From contig NZ_FOLL01000016.1 in the NCBI RefSeq assembly GCF_900112315.1, forward strand, positions 62,001-126,000: a stretch of 64,000 nucleotides of DNA, given 5' to 3'. Both the position numbers and the translations under genes were made by a program. Below are positions 3,965-11,594 of this stretch, piece after piece (the stretch's first letter is position 1; every line of letters begins with the position of its first letter). The notes beneath the pieces are model-generated. The model was given only the letters and a program-made list of their open reading frames with translations. It was not told the origin of the DNA and searched no databases. The stretch is from Parapedobacter composti. GTDB lineage: Bacteria > Bacteroidota > Bacteroidia > Sphingobacteriales > Sphingobacteriaceae.

Positions 3965-5218
3965 TCAGCGCTCCGCCTCGATGCTTGAAAGGAGCATATC
4001 AAAATACTTTTCGAATGCTATATGTGCAATCCCTTTAGCCCCTGCATCGGCGCCTAATCTGGAAAGCTCCACACGGGCGATATCCCGTAAAGGAGTCATG
4101 CAATAGGTATTGATGGCCTGCTGGATAGGTATGGTGATGTATTGGTTGGCTTCGGCGATTTTCCCTCCCAAAATAATCAGTTCGGGGTTGAACAGCTGGA
4201 TAAGCGTGGCAATACCTTTGCCCAGTCTCTCGCCGATCGAGGCAAGTATGCTGATCGCATATTGGTCGCCTTTGTTCGCGGCATTAATAACAATCTGAGG
4301 CGCGATATTCTCAATCTCTTGTTCCGGCAGCGTGTTCAGCAGGGAATCTTGTCCGGATAAAATCCCTTCCCTTGCCATGTTAGCCAGGGCGACTCCGGAA
4401 GCAACGGTTTCCAGACAGCCCTTTTTTCCGCAATAACAAAGGATACCGTCTTCCACGAAGGGCATGTGCCCCATTTCGCCCGAAAAACCAGCTGCGCCGT
4501 TTCTTACGCGGCCATCCATAATAATCCCCAAGCCGATACCCCAGTCCATTAGGATGACCAGCACGTCCTTTCGGCCCTGTGCTAAGCCAAACTTAAGTTC
4601 GGCCATCGCCGCGCTTTTAACATCGTTGACGATGAAAGCAGGTTTGCCCAATTGGTTGGAGATGTACTCCCGGAGCGGCAATTGCTTTTCGTCCGACATA
4701 TAGGTGTGGTTTCGACCGTCTTTATAACTGATAAGGCCAGGCATACTGATGCCGATAGCGAGAATTGCTTTTTCCGGAACGTCCGAATCGTCCATGAATT
4801 CGGTTAATAGTCGCACTAGCTGAATGGCCGACGACCAGTCCTGCGTCAGGGTAAAGGGGATTGAAACTGACCGAAGAAATGTGTTGGTGTTGTCAACAAG
4901 CGTCATCTTCACCCTGAATAGCTCCACTTCTGCACACAGGATATAAAACGTGTTAGGTTTTATTTTGTTCAAAACCGGCTTTCTTCCGCCGATGGAGTTT
5001 CCTTTCTCATTCTGTTCAATGATGCCCACTTGGGCCAGCGAACTGATAAGTTCCAACGTTTTGGGAGCACTTATCCTTAAATGCTTGCATATCGCCGCGT
5101 TAGTCATTCCATTGCCGGCAATCAAGGCCTTAACCAATTTCAATTTAAATCCATGGTTCTTCTTCTCGATTTTCGACTTGTTTTCCAAGTGACTATTACT
5201 TAAAAACAATGGGGACAT
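3965..5218 (-). CDS. ROK family transcriptional regulator (NagC/XylR type)
   Basis: 417 residues. An N-terminal winged helix-turn-helix (about 20-85, with the GMTNAAICKHLRIS recognition region) is followed by a ROK sugar-kinase fold. The ROK zinc motif CYCGKKGCLE is intact, as is the preceding GEMGH motif that supplies the His ligand; the nucleotide-binding DWGIGLGI loop is present. Such proteins repress sugar-use genes and are released by a phosphorylated or free sugar. The gene is divergent from the Gfo/DUF1080 operon (169 bp between starts), which is its likeliest target together with the PUL on the other side. A -7 box on the minus strand (5239-5246) gives a short leader. Confidence 0.92.
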   Translation of the reverse strand: MSPLFLSNSHLENKSKIEKKNHGFKLKLVKALIAGNGMTNAAICKHLRISAPKTLELISSLAQVGIIEQNEKGNSIGGRKPVLNKIKPNTFYILCAEVELFRVKMTLVDNTNTFLRSVSIPFTLTQDWSSAIQLVRLLTEFMDDSDVPEKAILAIGISMPGLISYKDGRNHTYMSDEKQLPLREYISNQLGKPAFIVNDVKSAAMAELKFGLAQGRKDVLVILMDWGIGLGIIMDGRVRNGAAGFSGEMGHMPFVEDGILCYCGKKGCLETVASGVALANMAREGILSGQDSLLNTLPEQEIENIAPQIVINAANKGDQYAISILASIGERLGKGIATLIQLFNPELIILGGKIAEANQYITIPIQQAINTYCMTPLRDIARVELSRLGADAGAKGIAHIAFEKYFDMLLSSIEAER

Positions 5219-5246: not shown

Positions 5247-5350
5247 AGTTTATTATTTTATTACAGGGTATAGTTTTGTTACATATTTGCAAAAAGAATT
5301 AATCTTTTGAAAAAAAATAAGAAAAGTTTTACGTTATTCGGATGAAATAA

Positions 5351-5358
5351 TAAATTTG
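5351..5358 (+). promoter_or_regulatory. -7 box (TAAATTTG) for the Gfo/DUF1080 operon
   Basis: TAAATTTG matches TAnnTTTG 29 bases before the chosen ATG (5388). The upstream region to 5218 is A+T rich and holds a second match, TAGTTTTG at 5271-5278, so two starts are possible. It lies in the shared region with the divergent ROK gene, where an operator would be expected. Confidence 0.45.
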
Positions 5359-5387: not shown

Positions 5388-6659
5388 ATGAAGAAAGAAA
5401 ACTCATCCCGTCGGGAATTTATCAAAAAATCATTGATTGGGGCGGCGGCATTCAGCATCGTTCCGCGTTTCGTATTAGGCGGCCCGGGATACTTGGCGCC
5501 GAGCGATCACCTTACCAAGGGTGTCATCGGTGTCGGGGCTATGGGCCGCGGACACTTTGGCTATGCAGGCACTAAAACTGTAGCCATCTGTGACGTAGAT
5601 ACTCGTCACCTTAAACTGGCTATGCAGCGGTTGAGTGATCCCGGCGTGAAACAGTTTGCGGATTTCCGGGAACTGATCCAGTTACCGGAGGTGGATATCG
5701 TTCATATTGCTACACCTCCGCACTGGCATGGTATCATGGCAGCCGAAGCTGCCCGCATGGGAAAGGATATTTGGTGTGAAAAACCCATGACAAGGACCAT
5801 CGGTGAAGGGAAACGGGTCGTGGAAGCCGTTAGACAGCATGGAAATATCTTCCGGCTGAATACGTGGTTCCGCTTCGATGCGAACTTTTACGGGATGAAT
5901 GTGCCAGTGAAAAAGATAAAAAAGTTGGTTGATTCCGGTATGCTGGGATGGCCGTTGAAAGTCACCATCAGTAAACATACGGGATTTGACTGGAAGTTTT
6001 ATTGGGTGGGGCGTGAAAACCTGCCGGTGGAACAGGTGCCTAAAGAGCTGGATTATGAAATGTGGCTTGGGCCAGCCCCGTTTAAACCTTACAGCACTCA
6101 TCGCGTACATACGACATTCCGCGGGTATTGGGATTACGATGGCGGCGGGTTAGGCGATATGGGCCAGCATTATATTGATCCGGTTCAGTATTTTTTGAAC
6201 AAGGACAATGAAAGTCCCGTTTCTGTAGAGGTCGATGCGCCGCAGCAGCACAGTGACGCAGTCGGAACATGGCGCCGAGTTACCTATACTTATGCCGACG
6301 GTTGCCAGATTATCCTCGATGGGGAGGGTAAGGACGTAGGAAGGCCGTATATTGAAGGACCCAACGGCAATCTGTACCGCGGGTTTAAATCTGACATACC
6401 GGATATGGAACGGAAGCTAGCCGCTTTCCCTGATCCGGAACCGCAGATGACGGATTTCGTCGAAGCAGTTAAGAACCGTCGAAAGTTTGCGCTTAACGAG
6501 GAAAACGGGCACCGCTCATGTACCATTGTAAATATGGGATTGATAGCCTTGCGCCTGGGGCGGTCGCTTAAATTTGATCCCGAGCGCCAGGTTTTCATCG
6601 ATGATGAAGCAGCAAACCGGTTAATCGATCAGCCCATGCGTGGCCCTTGGTCCATATAA
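5388..6659 (+). CDS. Gfo/Idh/MocA family oxidoreductase, Tat-exported
   Basis: 423 residues from the ATG at 5388, preferred over the GTG at 5358 because it puts a twin-arginine signal (SRREFIKKSLIG) near the N-terminus. After the signal comes a Rossmann fold with GVIGVGAMGRGHFG, the family's EKPMTRT motif about 130 residues in, and a C-terminal alpha/beta substrate domain. Family members are NAD(P)-dependent sugar dehydrogenases; exported ones with a Tat signal carry their cofactor folded in. The next gene carries DUF1080 domains, and that pairing is known from bacterial pathways in which a glycoside is oxidised at C3 and the 3-keto sugar is then cleaved. So a periplasmic 3-dehydrogenase of a glycoside is the likely role; the substrate is not known. 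Confidence 0.88.
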   Translation: MKKENSSRREFIKKSLIGAAAFSIVPRFVLGGPGYLAPSDHLTKGVIGVGAMGRGHFGYAGTKTVAICDVDTRHLKLAMQRLSDPGVKQFADFRELIQLPEVDIVHIATPPHWHGIMAAEAARMGKDIWCEKPMTRTIGEGKRVVEAVRQHGNIFRLNTWFRFDANFYGMNVPVKKIKKLVDSGMLGWPLKVTISKHTGFDWKFYWVGRENLPVEQVPKELDYEMWLGPAPFKPYSTHRVHTTFRGYWDYDGGGLGDMGQHYIDPVQYFLNKDNESPVSVEVDAPQQHSDAVGTWRRVTYTYADGCQIILDGEGKDVGRPYIEGPNGNLYRGFKSDIPDMERKLAAFPDPEPQMTDFVEAVKNRRKFALNEENGHRSCTIVNMGLIALRLGRSLKFDPERQVFIDDEAANRLIDQPMRGPWSI

Positions 6660-6687
6660 ATTTGATAACATAAGTTCAAAAGAATCC

Positions 6688-9600
6688 ATGAAGAGATCCA
6701 TCATATATGCGCTTACAGCGTTTTTAATAGTGCCGGTGACGGTGTATGCCCAGCAAGGCGATAACCGTACCACAACGACCAAGATAGCCGATTTGCTTGC
6801 TCTACAGCCCGCGGAAACCACAGAACGTTTCCATGACGCCATGCAACAGCTCGAACGGTTTTCTGCCGCTGAAATCTCCGCATTACTTCAGCAGTTAACC
6901 CCTCCGGGTACCGATGGCAACACGGGGGCGGTTTATGCGGCGAATAGTTATAGTTATCATGTGCTGAGCCCGGGTAAGACGCTTCAACGGGCAGCATTCA
7001 TCGAGGGTGCGTTGGACGCGCTGGAAGTGGTAACAGACAAGGATGTAAAGGGGTTTATCATTCAGTTGCTTCAGAATGCAGGCGACAATTCAGCGATTAA
7101 TACGTTAAGCGCGTATCTCTATGATACCTATTTAAGCGAAAAAGCTGCACGTGCCCTTGCACGTATTGGTTCCGATGAGGCCGGATCTGCGTTATTGAAG
7201 GCATTGCCAGAGGCAACAGGAATTGCCGAAATCAATATCATCAATGCACTTGGTTTCATCGGTTACCAACCAGCAGAGGCCGCTATATTACAAAAGGCGA
7301 ACACAACGGATCAGAACCTGCGCCGGGTTGTTATATACGCTCTTTCGGAAATTGGGGGAACGGCTTCCGCGGCGGTATTGGAACAAGCGGCGAGTGCCTC
7401 GGGTTATGCGTATGACCCGACAGGCGCCACAGGGGCGTATGTTCATTATATCGGCAGGCTGGCGGAAAACGGCCATGTTGCTGCGGCTCGTAAAGGTGCC
7501 GCAAGGCTTTTCAATGCTGCCAGCACCGCCAATCAGACACAGACACGAATTGCAGCGCTGGATGCCCTTACCGCGATTAACGAAGAACGGCAGGTAAAGG
7601 CACTGGTAAAAGCAGCAAAGGATGGCAATGGCGTATATCGGAATGCCGCACTAATGTTGCTGACACCTTATATCGACGGACGTGTATCCTCGCGTCTGAC
7701 CAGGGGATTGGCTAAGGCCGACAGCAGGGTTCAAGTGGATATCCTGCATTACCTGGGTAGCTGCAACCAGGTTTCCGCGCTTCCTGAGGTTAAGAAGGCA
7801 TTAAATGCAGATGATGCCGCGGTTCGTCTCGCTGCCGTTGAAGCCTATAACAAATTGGCCGGCGATGCAGCCGCCCAAGTGCTGCTCGACCGGCTTGCTG
7901 CAAGTGACGAAGATACGCAGGAGGCTATCAAAACACTGTTGTTGACTTCAGAAAACAAGGAGCTTCCGGTTTTGGTTACTCATACACTGGCTGAGGCTAA
8001 GGATCCAAAGATTCAGGTATTGTTGCTTGACGTGCTTGCACAGCGTGAAGCCGCAGAGAGTATGCCGGTTATCCTAAGCTTGATCCAAGGAAATGCGTCA
8101 GCCGAAACCAAGACGGCCGCTTATCATGCGCTGCCCCGCGTGGCCCGCCCGACAGATCTGGATAAACTGTTGGAACTTTTGCTCTCCGGGGGCAATGAAC
8201 ATAATAAAAAGGTGCAGGAAGCTTTAGTGTCGTCGGTCACTCGGAGTGCCGACAAAGGGGCATATACCCAACGTATCATTGACCGCTTGAATGCCGCGGA
8301 TGGTTCTCAGAAATCCCGTTTCTTCCCTGTGCTATCCGGAATAGGCGGCGACACGGCGCTGGCGGTGGTATCCGGTTTTACCGAACACCGTTCGGATTCA
8401 GCGTTGTATGGTGCTGCGGTTTCTGCTTTGGCGAATTGGACAGACGCTGCGGCGTTGCCCCGGTTAGTTGAGTTAAGTCGGGAAAAAACGCTGGGTGCGA
8501 ATAGGTTAGATCAAGTGATTAAAGGATTAGTGCAGAAAATAGGCATGGCCAACGTGCCGGCTGAACAGAAAGTATTGCACCTTCGTGATGCATTCGAGGT
8601 ATCCAGGACGGTCGACCAAAAAAGAGCGATTTTAAAGGCATTGGAAGCTTACAAAACGTATAATGCATTGATGTTTGCCGGCCGGTTTTTGGACGATGAA
8701 CAACTTAAGTCGACAGCCGCGAACACGGTGATGAATATTGCGCTGGAGGATAAGCGCTTCTACGGAGCAGATGTAACCGCATTGTTGAATAAGGTAATCG
8801 GATTACTGTCGGGAAGTGAAAGCAGTTACCTGCGGGAAGCCATCCAAAAACACCTTAATGAGCTTCCGAAGGGGCAGGGGTATGTTTCCTTGTTCAACGG
8901 GCAGGATCTGGAAGGATGGAAAGGGCTGGTGGCCAATCCCATTAAGCGAGCTGCGATGGATGCGAAAACCCTGGCCGCTGAGCAGAAAAAAGCAGACGAG
9001 GTGATGCGGCAGGGGTGGTATGTGGCGGATGGCGTACTGCATTTCAACGGGAAAGGCGATAATATTGCCACGTTAAAGCAATACGGCGATTTCGAGCTGC
9101 TGGTGGATTGGAAGTTGGCTAAAGAGGGCAAAGACGGCGATGCGGGTATTTACCTGCGGGGTACTCCACAGGTGCAGATATGGGATACTTCGCGCGTCAA
9201 TGTTGGCGCCCAGGTCGGTTCGGGCGGATTATACAATAACAAAAAGCATGAAAGCAAGCCGCTGAAAGTAGCTGACAACCCTTTAGGCGAATGGAATACG
9301 TTTCGGATAATCATGGTGGGCGACAGGGTGACGGTATATCTCAACGGCGAGCTCGTGACAGACAGTGTAGTGCTCGAAAATTATTGGGATAGGAGCCTCC
9401 CGATATTCCCGAAGGAACAGATAGAATTACAGGCCCATGGTACACATGTCTCTTACCGCGATATCTACATTCGGGAACTGCCGCGAAAAGAGGTGTTTAA
9501 ACTGTCCGATAAGGAAAAGGCAGATGGGTTCGAGGTGCTGTTTGATGGAACCGATTTATCGGCATGGACCGGTAATACCACGGCATACCAAATCAGTGAA

Positions 9601-10101
9601 GAAGGTACATTGGCTATATACCCGACGAAAGGCTCGGGGGGCAATCTGTACAGTAAAGCGGAATTCGCCGATTTTATCTATCGATTTGAGTTCCGCCTAA
9701 CGCCGGGAGCTAATAATGGAATCGGCATCCGTACTCCAATGGAGGGCGATGCCGCTTACGTGGGCATGGAAATACAGGTGCTTGACGACGGCGCCGATAT
9801 GTATAAGAGTTTGGCGCCTTACCAATATCACGGATCCGTGTATGGCATTATACCTGCAAAAAGGGGATACCTAAAGCCTGTGGGTGAGTGGAATGAGCAA
9901 GAGATTTATATTAAAGGTAACCATATCAGGGTAACGTTGAACGGTACGGTGATTGTGGACGGTGATTTGGCTGAGGCGACCAAGAACGGTACGTTGGATG
10001 GGAAAAACCATCCAGGCTTAGCGCGTAAATCCGGACATATCGCGTTTCTGGGACATGGCTCAGAGGTGCATTTCCGGAATATCCGGGTAAAGCGGTTGTA
10101 G
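6688..10101 (+). CDS. HEAT-repeat protein with two DUF1080 (3-keto-disaccharide hydrolase) domains
   Basis: 1137 residues from the ATG at 6688, which is followed by a Sec signal peptide ending near VYAQQ; earlier in-frame starts overlap the previous stop and would bury it. Residues ~30-725 are a long alpha-solenoid of HEAT-like repeats, Ala-rich with recurring aspartate-alanine-alanine-valine-arginine helices. Two concanavalin-like DUF1080 domains follow: ~731-945 (VSLFNGQDLEGW start) and ~948-1137 (FEVLFDGTDLSAW start). DUF1080 proteins cleave 3-keto-glycosides, matching the oxidoreductase 28 bp upstream. The solenoid may dock the enzyme to a partner or to a glycan. It is followed by a strong bidirectional terminator. 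Confidence 0.88.
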   Translation: MKRSIIYALTAFLIVPVTVYAQQGDNRTTTTKIADLLALQPAETTERFHDAMQQLERFSAAEISALLQQLTPPGTDGNTGAVYAANSYSYHVLSPGKTLQRAAFIEGALDALEVVTDKDVKGFIIQLLQNAGDNSAINTLSAYLYDTYLSEKAARALARIGSDEAGSALLKALPEATGIAEINIINALGFIGYQPAEAAILQKANTTDQNLRRVVIYALSEIGGTASAAVLEQAASASGYAYDPTGATGAYVHYIGRLAENGHVAAARKGAARLFNAASTANQTQTRIAALDALTAINEERQVKALVKAAKDGNGVYRNAALMLLTPYIDGRVSSRLTRGLAKADSRVQVDILHYLGSCNQVSALPEVKKALNADDAAVRLAAVEAYNKLAGDAAAQVLLDRLAASDEDTQEAIKTLLLTSENKELPVLVTHTLAEAKDPKIQVLLLDVLAQREAAESMPVILSLIQGNASAETKTAAYHALPRVARPTDLDKLLELLLSGGNEHNKKVQEALVSSVTRSADKGAYTQRIIDRLNAADGSQKSRFFPVLSGIGGDTALAVVSGFTEHRSDSALYGAAVSALANWTDAAALPRLVELSREKTLGANRLDQVIKGLVQKIGMANVPAEQKVLHLRDAFEVSRTVDQKRAILKALEAYKTYNALMFAGRFLDDEQLKSTAANTVMNIALEDKRFYGADVTALLNKVIGLLSGSESSYLREAIQKHLNELPKGQGYVSLFNGQDLEGWKGLVANPIKRAAMDAKTLAAEQKKADEVMRQGWYVADGVLHFNGKGDNIATLKQYGDFELLVDWKLAKEGKDGDAGIYLRGTPQVQIWDTSRVNVGAQVGSGGLYNNKKHESKPLKVADNPLGEWNTFRIIMVGDRVTVYLNGELVTDSVVLENYWDRSLPIFPKEQIELQAHGTHVSYRDIYIRELPRKEVFKLSDKEKADGFEVLFDGTDLSAWTGNTTAYQISEEGTLAIYPTKGSGGNLYSKAEFADFIYRFEFRLTPGANNGIGIRTPMEGDAAYVGMEIQVLDDGADMYKSLAPYQYHGSVYGIIPAKRGYLKPVGEWNEQEIYIKGNHIRVTLNGTVIVDGDLAEATKNGTLDGKNHPGLARKSGHIAFLGHGSEVHFRNIRVKRL

Positions 10102-11057: not shown

Positions 11058-11594
11058 TCATTGTATTTTTCCTAAATAATGTTTTATTGCTGTTAATAAT
11101 GTGGTGCTGTTCCCCAATTCGCCCTTTATCATCCATCCATAACCATCGCTAAGCACGCGGTTATACCGCCCGATACGGAATGCCGCCTTGGCCTTGATGG
11201 ATGCATAATCCAGTGGCAGGCAGGTATCATCTGCGCACAGGTTCAGCAAAAGGTCAAAATTAACAGAAATAAATGATTTTATCGCATGCCCTTTGGGAAT
11301 GAAGTTCCAGGTTAGGTCTGCCGGCCCCAACAGTGTCAAGTTGAGCTGGGGTGGGATATCCATCCCAAATTCCGAAAATCCTAATATGCTGCAGGTTTTG
11401 CCGTCTTTCTGAAGTCGGTTGGCCAGATCAGTTATCCACGCCAAATCTTCATACCGCTGCAACGGAATCAATACGGCGATGTGTTGGGCCTCCCGATAGC
11501 TTACTGAACGCGGCGGTATATCGGACTGCTTTTTCATTGTACGACACAGCCACTGCTTCCCGGTTTTATGGCGTATAGCCACTAAAAAACGCAT
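11058..11594 (-). CDS. DUF6913-like conserved protein
   Basis: 178 residues from the ATG at 11594; a TTG at 11603 would overlap the ligA stop. No catalytic motif is apparent. The central part reads like an alpha/beta fold (HIAVLIPLQRYEDLAWITDL, then a hydrophobic VNFDLLLNLC strand, then IGRYN). It resembles a Bacteroidota family annotated DUF6913 that often sits beside dapA, as here. Function unknown. It is squeezed between ligA (5-base gap) and dapA (1-base gap), so it is translated from the same mRNA. Confidence 0.75.
   Translation of the reverse strand: MRFLVAIRHKTGKQWLCRTMKKQSDIPPRSVSYREAQHIAVLIPLQRYEDLAWITDLANRLQKDGKTCSILGFSEFGMDIPPQLNLTLLGPADLTWNFIPKGHAIKSFISVNFDLLLNLCADDTCLPLDYASIKAKAAFRIGRYNRVLSDGYGWMIKGELGNSTTLLTAIKHYLGKIQ

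Follow-up and report, generated by a model that had tools for sequence, protein, structure and literature searches.

The window, the whole stretch of DNA analysed here, comprises 64 kb of the 4.62 Mb genome of Parapedobacter composti (bases 62001-126000 of contig 29, C29). Two genes lie next to each other on its forward strand at positions 5388-6659 and 6688-10101, separated by 28 bases, and both open reading frames (ORFs) are open over these coordinates. The first encodes a Gfo/Idh/MocA oxidoreductase of 423 amino acids with a twin-arginine translocation (Tat) signal, hereafter GFO. The second encodes a protein of 1137 amino acids, predicted to be exported, in which a solenoid of HEAT repeats is followed by two DUF1080 domains, D1 and D2. 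This description had been given in an earlier reading of the sequence (the original prediction) and is borne out by the ORFs, by Pfam and by an AlphaFold2 (AF2) model. A partner gene with HEAT and/or DUF1080 parts directly adjoins GFO in 37 of the 38 distinct loci of the GFO subfamily.

GFO was matched by the Pfam profiles for the Rossmann part (GFO_IDH_MocA, 6e-19) and the C-terminal part (GFO_IDH_MocA_C2, PF19051, 2.6e-148) and contains EKP and D-x-x-x-H, which we take to be the motifs of the Gfo/Idh/MocA family. Residues K132, D257 and H261, presumably catalytic, are kept in 38/38 homologues. The best NCBIfam match was the glycoside 3-dehydrogenase family BT_2158_fam (NF058561, 8.8e-46), and the best solved relatives were 8TDF (6e-32) and 8TDH (3e-29), which carry only the name 'dehydrogenase' in the PDB. 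Membership of GH109 was rejected: PF21252, the GH109 C-terminal family, has a single match in the genome, in another gene (C28:42268-42729). Because both the BT_2158 cut-off and the GH109 domain test failed, GFO is treated as a distinct subfamily, which may work like BT2158. A closer BT2158-like Gfo protein (494 bits, below the cut-off of 750) is encoded elsewhere in the same genome (G000:C30:265535-266890). The AF2 model of GFO had a mean predicted local distance difference test score (pLDDT) of 46 and was not used.

The signal region of GFO, residues 1-31 (5388-5480, forward strand, end set by eye; SSRREFIKKSLIGAAAFSIVP), contains R8-R9, F11 and a hydrophobic stretch. R8 is present in 38/38 homologues and R9 in 34/38, the other four, all proteins of family f44, having RK. 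TatC is encoded in the genome (2e-66). With a twin arginine ahead of a hydrophobic stretch and TatC available, GFO is a predicted Tat substrate.

For the partner protein, Pfam, NCBIfam, a PDB sequence search and the AF2 model were concordant on the order HEAT (residues 29-725), D1 (731-930) and D2 (941-1137). Residues 1-22 (6688-6753, forward strand) were read by eye as a Sec-type signal peptide; the N-terminus is of low confidence in the model. The HEAT part (6772-8862, forward strand) was recognised by HEAT_2 in four stretches (5.9e-33), and the model shows successive helices over approximately the same residues, mostly with pLDDT above 85, followed by two mostly-strand domains; profile and helical solenoid together place it among the HEAT repeat proteins. 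In VIA-align it matched alphaRep, importin and Integrator chains, which for repeat proteins possibly reflects a common arrangement only. The model as a whole had a mean pLDDT of 81 (10-row alignment) and a predicted template modelling score (pTM) of 0.55. Both DUF1080 domains contain stretches of low confidence (824-829, 831-862, 1018-1023 and 1048-1051), and the placement of the domains relative to the solenoid can therefore not be read from it. An anti-phage role was considered and set aside: PADLOC gave one weak HEAT-ARM match (3.1e-08), which was ascribed to the repeats. No description of a HEAT-DUF1080 fusion was found in the titles and abstract starts of the open-access literature searched, subscription papers lying outside its scope, and in excerpts of PMC10434189 HEAT repeat and DUF1080 are tabulated as separate genes. 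The mounting of DUF1080 domains on HEAT repeats is thus apparently undescribed.

PF06439 matched two stretches of the protein (6.7e-86), corresponding to D1 (8878-9477) and D2 (9508-10098), both on the forward strand, with 145.1 and 151.8 bits against a cut-off of 26.8. The two domains had been said to differ, and they do: they are approximately 25% identical and belong to two types, QVQIWD in D1 and EIQVLD in D2. The D1 motifs PQVQ[IVM]WD and GSGGLYNN were present in 31/31 copies (leaving out the D1 of L020 and the frame-shifted L092), and the loosened D2 pattern E-x-Q-[IV]-L-D in 33/33; further motif strings were found in 25-30 of the 31 D1 copies and in 27-33 of the 33 D2 copies. In an alignment of 24 domains the Gln type was common to the D1-like domains of several genomes and therefore represents a subclass, not the decay of one copy. 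Judged from its sequence, D1 is a Q-x-Q-x-W-D subclass of DUF1080 without a close solved structure. Its nearest solved sequence and best profile match was 4QHZ (52 bits), which is of the Glu type by alignment and was also matched in VIA-align (Z 16.6, with a root-mean-square deviation, rmsd, of 5.1, residues outside D1 included). The D2 profile matched 14 solved chains, with up to 119 bits, and in VIA-align D2 matched 3U1X (Z 20.8), 3HBK (20.4), 9FBE (19.0), 8RR2 (18.6), 8V31 (18.5) and 8TDA (18.4). The PDB titles of 9FBE and 8RR2 read 3-keto-glycoside eliminase/hydratase, those of 8TDA and 8V31 3-keto-2-hydroxy-glucal hydratase. The original prediction had named the absence of catalytic residues from both domains as the observation that would tell against it. 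As far as the motifs show, this did not come about, the family motifs being kept in both domains; the Gln of D1, where most aligned domains have Glu, is the part of that check that is less clear.

Two other DUF1080 proteins were seen on contig C30. One is a second tandem protein lacking HEAT repeats (G000:C30:32747-34135, L095 7748-9136; 462 amino acids, two PF06439 stretches) with a GldL gene in its neighbourhood. The other is a fusion of a sialic-acid-specific acetylesterase-type (SASA) part with DUF1080 (G000:C30:458048-459538, L096 8049-9539), which adjoins a Gfo protein and a major facilitator superfamily (MFS) transporter.

The pairing of the two genes was assessed across the GFO subfamily, which was found in at least 15 of 395 Bacteroidota genomes at E up to 1e-120, with at most four candidates per genome scored. 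In these loci, found through GFO alone, the partner was adjacent in 14 of 15 genomes, the exception being G178 (L115). A second genome search, one that covered G223 for D1, gave at least 12 of 395 genomes, with at most seven candidates per genome scored. Other loci were found through the HEAT partner protein, and the pairing in those is therefore not independent. L011 and L089 denote a single locus, and L022 and L133 another, each counted once; the HEAT part of L143 was assigned by eye and gave no blastp match. Three Bacteroidales metagenome-assembled genomes (MAGs) have a seemingly unpaired D1 gene; in these GFO is followed by a HEAT-D2 gene and D1 lies elsewhere in the genome. Loci with no GFO neighbour are these separate D1 genes (L020, L021 and L023), the single-domain D1-like genes of G294, G345 and G255, and L014 and L019, in whose genomes no GFO was found at E up to 1e-50. 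No third gene recurred across genera in the neighbourhood clustering. GFO and its partner form a conserved two-gene module across several orders of Bacteroidota.

L019 (2283-9037) is from a planctomycete MAG. The protein encoded there combines D1, D2 and a third DUF1080-like part, and its neighbour is a protein in which, by eye, sulfatase, HEAT-like and cytochrome-like parts are joined. In L014 (490-7776), a Bacteroidales MAG, a ROK gene, an MFS transporter gene, a HEAT-D1-D2 gene and a kinase-like gene (by eye) stand in a row, a possible clue to the substrate.

While the pairing is stable, the DUF1080 content of the partner is not. Among the 37 paired loci, D1 and D2 are fused in 25, D1 is the only domain in three (G001, G002 and G004), a D2-type domain is the only one in eight (G202, four members of a single genus of family f44 and three Bacteroidales MAGs), and one (L022, a Bacteroidales MAG) has three neighbouring genes, D1 and a HEAT-like gene flanking GFO, the HEAT-like gene being cut by the contig end. 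The single domain of the f44 proteins has 37-40% identity with D2, against 25-27% with D1. A GFO tree of 35 rows places G202, which has no D1, as sister of the D1-D2 form of G435 (100/100) and away from the f44 clade; parsimony therefore implies two or more losses of D1. Loss of D2 is limited to one genus, where it occurred once or twice (weak support). One locus counted among the 25 fused forms, L092 of the single-contig genome G014, shows a frame change within D1, in a run of C that immediately precedes the D1 motif (near 11198-11202); this change could be a sequencing error, a pseudogene or a real frameshift.

The solenoid is variable in another manner. The stretch ahead of the first DUF1080 domain ranges from approximately 130 to 760 residues among homologues (ORFs as called). 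In the short forms, L116 and L121, just the two solenoid ends are recognisable, by eye, and no HEAT profile match reaching 0.001 was found in L116, L121, L017 or the D1 gene of L022. The HEAT-like gene of L022 scored 22 bits against a Pfam cut-off of 27.7, yet matches the HEAT part of the window protein at 2e-14. In the 21 loci that contain GFO, HEAT, D1 and D2, identity to the window proteins had a median of 79% for GFO, 75% for D1 (covering half of it in L092), 68% for D2 and 37% for HEAT. The solenoid drifts fastest and the enzyme-type parts are held. The unusual scaffold of the original prediction is real and conserved, with a variable length.

The computed results are the architecture, the conserved adjacency, the turnover of domains, the signals for export, the retention of family motifs and the conservation of the operator described below. 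Considered together with the best NCBIfam family of GFO and the eliminase/hydratase matches of D2, the pair looks like the glycoside-breaking oxidoreductase/DUF1080 couple that had been proposed. We put at about 0.6 the probability that it carries out exported C3 oxidation followed by elimination/hydration of glycosides, without a classical glycosidase, the DUF1080 domains being mounted on the HEAT solenoid. In this mechanism GFO would fold in the cytoplasm with its nicotinamide cofactor, be exported by Tat and, once in the periplasm, oxidise a sugar unit at C3; D1 and D2 would carry out elimination/hydration; and GFO would re-reduce the released 3-keto sugar, by analogy with glucose-fructose oxidoreductase. 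Since the same enzyme would do both, the cycle would need no external cofactor. As two enzyme subclasses, D1 and D2 would probably widen the substrate range, for example to anomers. The solenoid would serve as the mount and probably dock GFO, since GFO keeps a HEAT or HEAT-like segment next to it even in loci where D1 or D2 is absent or lies elsewhere, and a local ROK repressor would control the pair through one operator. According to excerpts of PMC11300592, BT2158 of Bacteroides thetaiotaomicron is a periplasmic glycoside 3-dehydrogenase that the bacterium requires on trehalose, leucrose and palatinose, and excerpts of PMC9007349 describe a Caulobacter DUF1080 protein, encoded near a lactose 3-dehydrogenase, as important on lactose.

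Several observations weigh against this mechanism. GFO scored 156.5 bits (153.6 in a repeat) against the BT_2158 equivalog cut-off of 750, and the profile match spans its residues 7-303 only. D1 has Gln in place of the Glu of the E-x-Q motif that is usual in aligned family members, and it matches the binding module CBM66 4AZZ (Z 14.8). The docking role of the HEAT part is drawn from gene linkage only, with the HEAT part of the short forms read by eye. The GFO of G178 has no HEAT-DUF1080 neighbour, with no HEAT or D1 match elsewhere in that genome at E up to 1e-20, and conversely the genome of L014, a MAG, has HEAT-D1-D2 and no GFO at E up to 1e-50. As far as excerpts of the two papers go, deletions of BT2157 or BT2158 gave no defect on raffinose-family sugars (PMC11501099), and 0/10 Pedobacter DUF1080 genes had a lactose phenotype (PMC9007349).

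A first alternative concerns the roles of D1 and D2. One could be an eliminase and the other a hydratase, acting in sequence on one polypeptide. The PDB titles are split in this way between hydratase (8TDA, 8V31) and eliminase/hydratase (8RR2, 9FBE), the Glu/Gln difference between D2 and D1 is kept in their copies, and four of the eight D2-only loci are in genomes with a D1-type domain elsewhere: three have an independent D1 gene (L020, L021, L023), and G255 (L130) has a 44% D1-like gene elsewhere. However, D1-only and D2-only forms persist beside GFO and D1 was lost at least twice; searches of G202, G172 and G388 at E up to 1e-20 gave no D1, although other DUF1080 proteins there could substitute. 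Such a division of labour is considered possible but rather doubtful.

A second alternative is that the pair belongs to the neighbouring SusC/SusD-type locus and serves the glycan of that locus. Divergent from the pair lies a gene for a ROK-family transcriptional regulator (3965-5218, reverse strand; PF00480, 1.4e-57), NagC-like by NCBIfam at 192 bits, below the cut-off of 650. Beyond it is a SusC/SusD-type set with DUF4959/DUF5000/DUF5126 and DUF4998 proteins, of which the SusD ORF ends at position 919 and a SusC-like ORF, by eye, precedes the window (C29:57812-60940). Between the ROK gene and GFO is an AT-rich inverted repeat, CTTTT-N13-AAAAG (5304-5326; CTTTTGAAAAAAAATAAGAAAAG), the predicted ROK operator, followed on its 3' side by a TAAATTTG box of the TAnnTTTG type (5351-5358, forward strand), which is also seen in the upstream regions of sister species. 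We take this box to be the -7 promoter element of Bacteroidota, whose consensus would be TAnnTTTG.

ROK orthologues, 62-76% identical, adjoin the module in six further loci. With up to three substitutions allowed, a longer pattern of the inverted repeat was found upstream of the module in 7/7 loci with a ROK orthologue and in 0/28 GFO loci without it, the 28 leaving out L142-L144 and including L016, which has a 31% identical partial ROK gene approximately 8 kb from GFO. The pattern was derived from sister sequences that had already been inspected, and 7/7 is therefore a footprint and not a blind test. Six of the seven loci are of one genus, within which L088, L089 and L091 lack both ROK gene and motif. 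In the whole genome the 27-mer had one site at up to three mismatches (control 0). Three more pattern matches in the scanned loci (L013, L017, L092) were none of them upstream of GFO. Twenty shuffles of the window gave no match, a mononucleotide shuffle being a weak control for an AT-rich stretch. Because the repeat accompanies the ROK orthologue in this way, local ROK control of the pair through the predicted operator, as the original prediction had it, is likely.

The SusC/SusD genes are adjacent in the window, as had been pointed out under the name of a polysaccharide utilisation locus. In G007 (L080) the motif and ROK gene precede the SusC gene of a SusC-SusD-GFO-HEAT run in one direction; in L085, L092 and L124, too, the genes ahead of GFO include SusC- or SusD-like ones. 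Against a functional link, the ROK gene stands here between SusC/SusD and GFO, no such motif was found before the SusC gene of the present genome, and in four sister species (L081-L084) the surroundings of ROK-GFO-HEAT showed no homologue of either protein. The position beside such a locus stands, the link is weak, joint control of the two in the present genome is not supported, and membership of the pair in the SusC/SusD locus is considered unlikely.

A third alternative treats the DUF1080 domains as CBM66-like binding modules on a long scaffold, with the chemistry left to GFO alone, or with a free sugar or cyclitol as the substrate of GFO. Over D1, the model matches not only 4AZZ but, at the same residues, galactocerebrosidase chains (Z approximately 14); the number of domains and the length of the solenoid differ between loci, as would be the case in binding arrays; and excerpts of PMC5673643 show overlapping DUF1080 and CBM66 annotations. 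D2, in contrast, is closer to eliminase/hydratases (Z 18.4-19.0) and has E-x-Q-V-L-D, G-E-W-N and H-G stretches in common with the hydratase 8V31, while D1 has long invariant stretches, far more than the HEAT part; pure binding thus appears distinctly improbable. That GFO is a GH109-like single-enzyme redox glycosidase with the HEAT-DUF1080 protein as an accessory would agree with the shared superfamily and with the chemistry and Tat export of GH109 enzymes, but GFO has PF19051 and PF21252 matches another gene, which makes it very improbable.

C3 oxidation with elimination/hydration remains the preferred reading, and it can be extended, tentatively and with considerable doubt, to a single exported complex. 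In it the solenoid would dock GFO, hold two different lyase/hydratase domains over it, pass on the reactive 3-keto and 2-hydroxy-3-keto-glycal intermediates and close the nicotinamide adenine dinucleotide (NAD) cycle; the end domains would be exchangeable, and the Gln-type DUF1080 active site would be new. If true, this complex would be a modular, redox-neutral glycoside-cleaving machine; in the literature searched, oxidative-eliminative glycoside cleavage has so far been described as the work of separate enzymes. Because D1 and D2 occur in nature singly, together or in split genes, and with short as well as long solenoids, the role of each part is open to direct testing. The module also supplies a DUF1080 subclass of which no close structure has been solved.

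Among known systems, glucose-fructose oxidoreductase (PDB 1OFG and relatives) is a Gfo-fold enzyme with a distant sequence match to GFO (5e-12). It is exported with retained cofactor and acts on free sugars; we know of no DUF1080 partner for it. BT3469 (PDB 4JQT) is a protein with tandem DUF1080 domains that aligns with model residues 731-1137 at an rmsd of 17.5, so that the domain arrangement is not matched; unlike the window protein it is a 431-residue chain without HEAT solenoid, and the first of its domains belongs to another type than QVQIWD. In the Caulobacter lactose pathway, according to excerpts of PMC9007349, periplasmic C3 oxidation is proposed to be followed by a DUF1080 protein, as in the mechanism considered here, but the dehydrogenase is the membrane-bound LacABC instead of a Gfo enzyme with predicted Tat export. 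BT2158-BT2157-BT2156 of Bacteroides thetaiotaomicron likewise combines a Gfo/Idh/MocA glycoside 3-dehydrogenase with a neighbouring DUF1080 protein, homologous to GFO and D2. It differs in that GFO is far below the BT_2158 cut-off, in a third neighbour, the sugar phosphate isomerase/epimerase BT2156 (excerpts of PMC10434189), where no third gene recurs here, and in its single-domain DUF1080 protein, where two DUF1080 types are carried on a HEAT solenoid in the window. The chemistry is known elsewhere; what seems to be new is the HEAT scaffold joined to one or two DUF1080 types and to one dehydrogenase subfamily.

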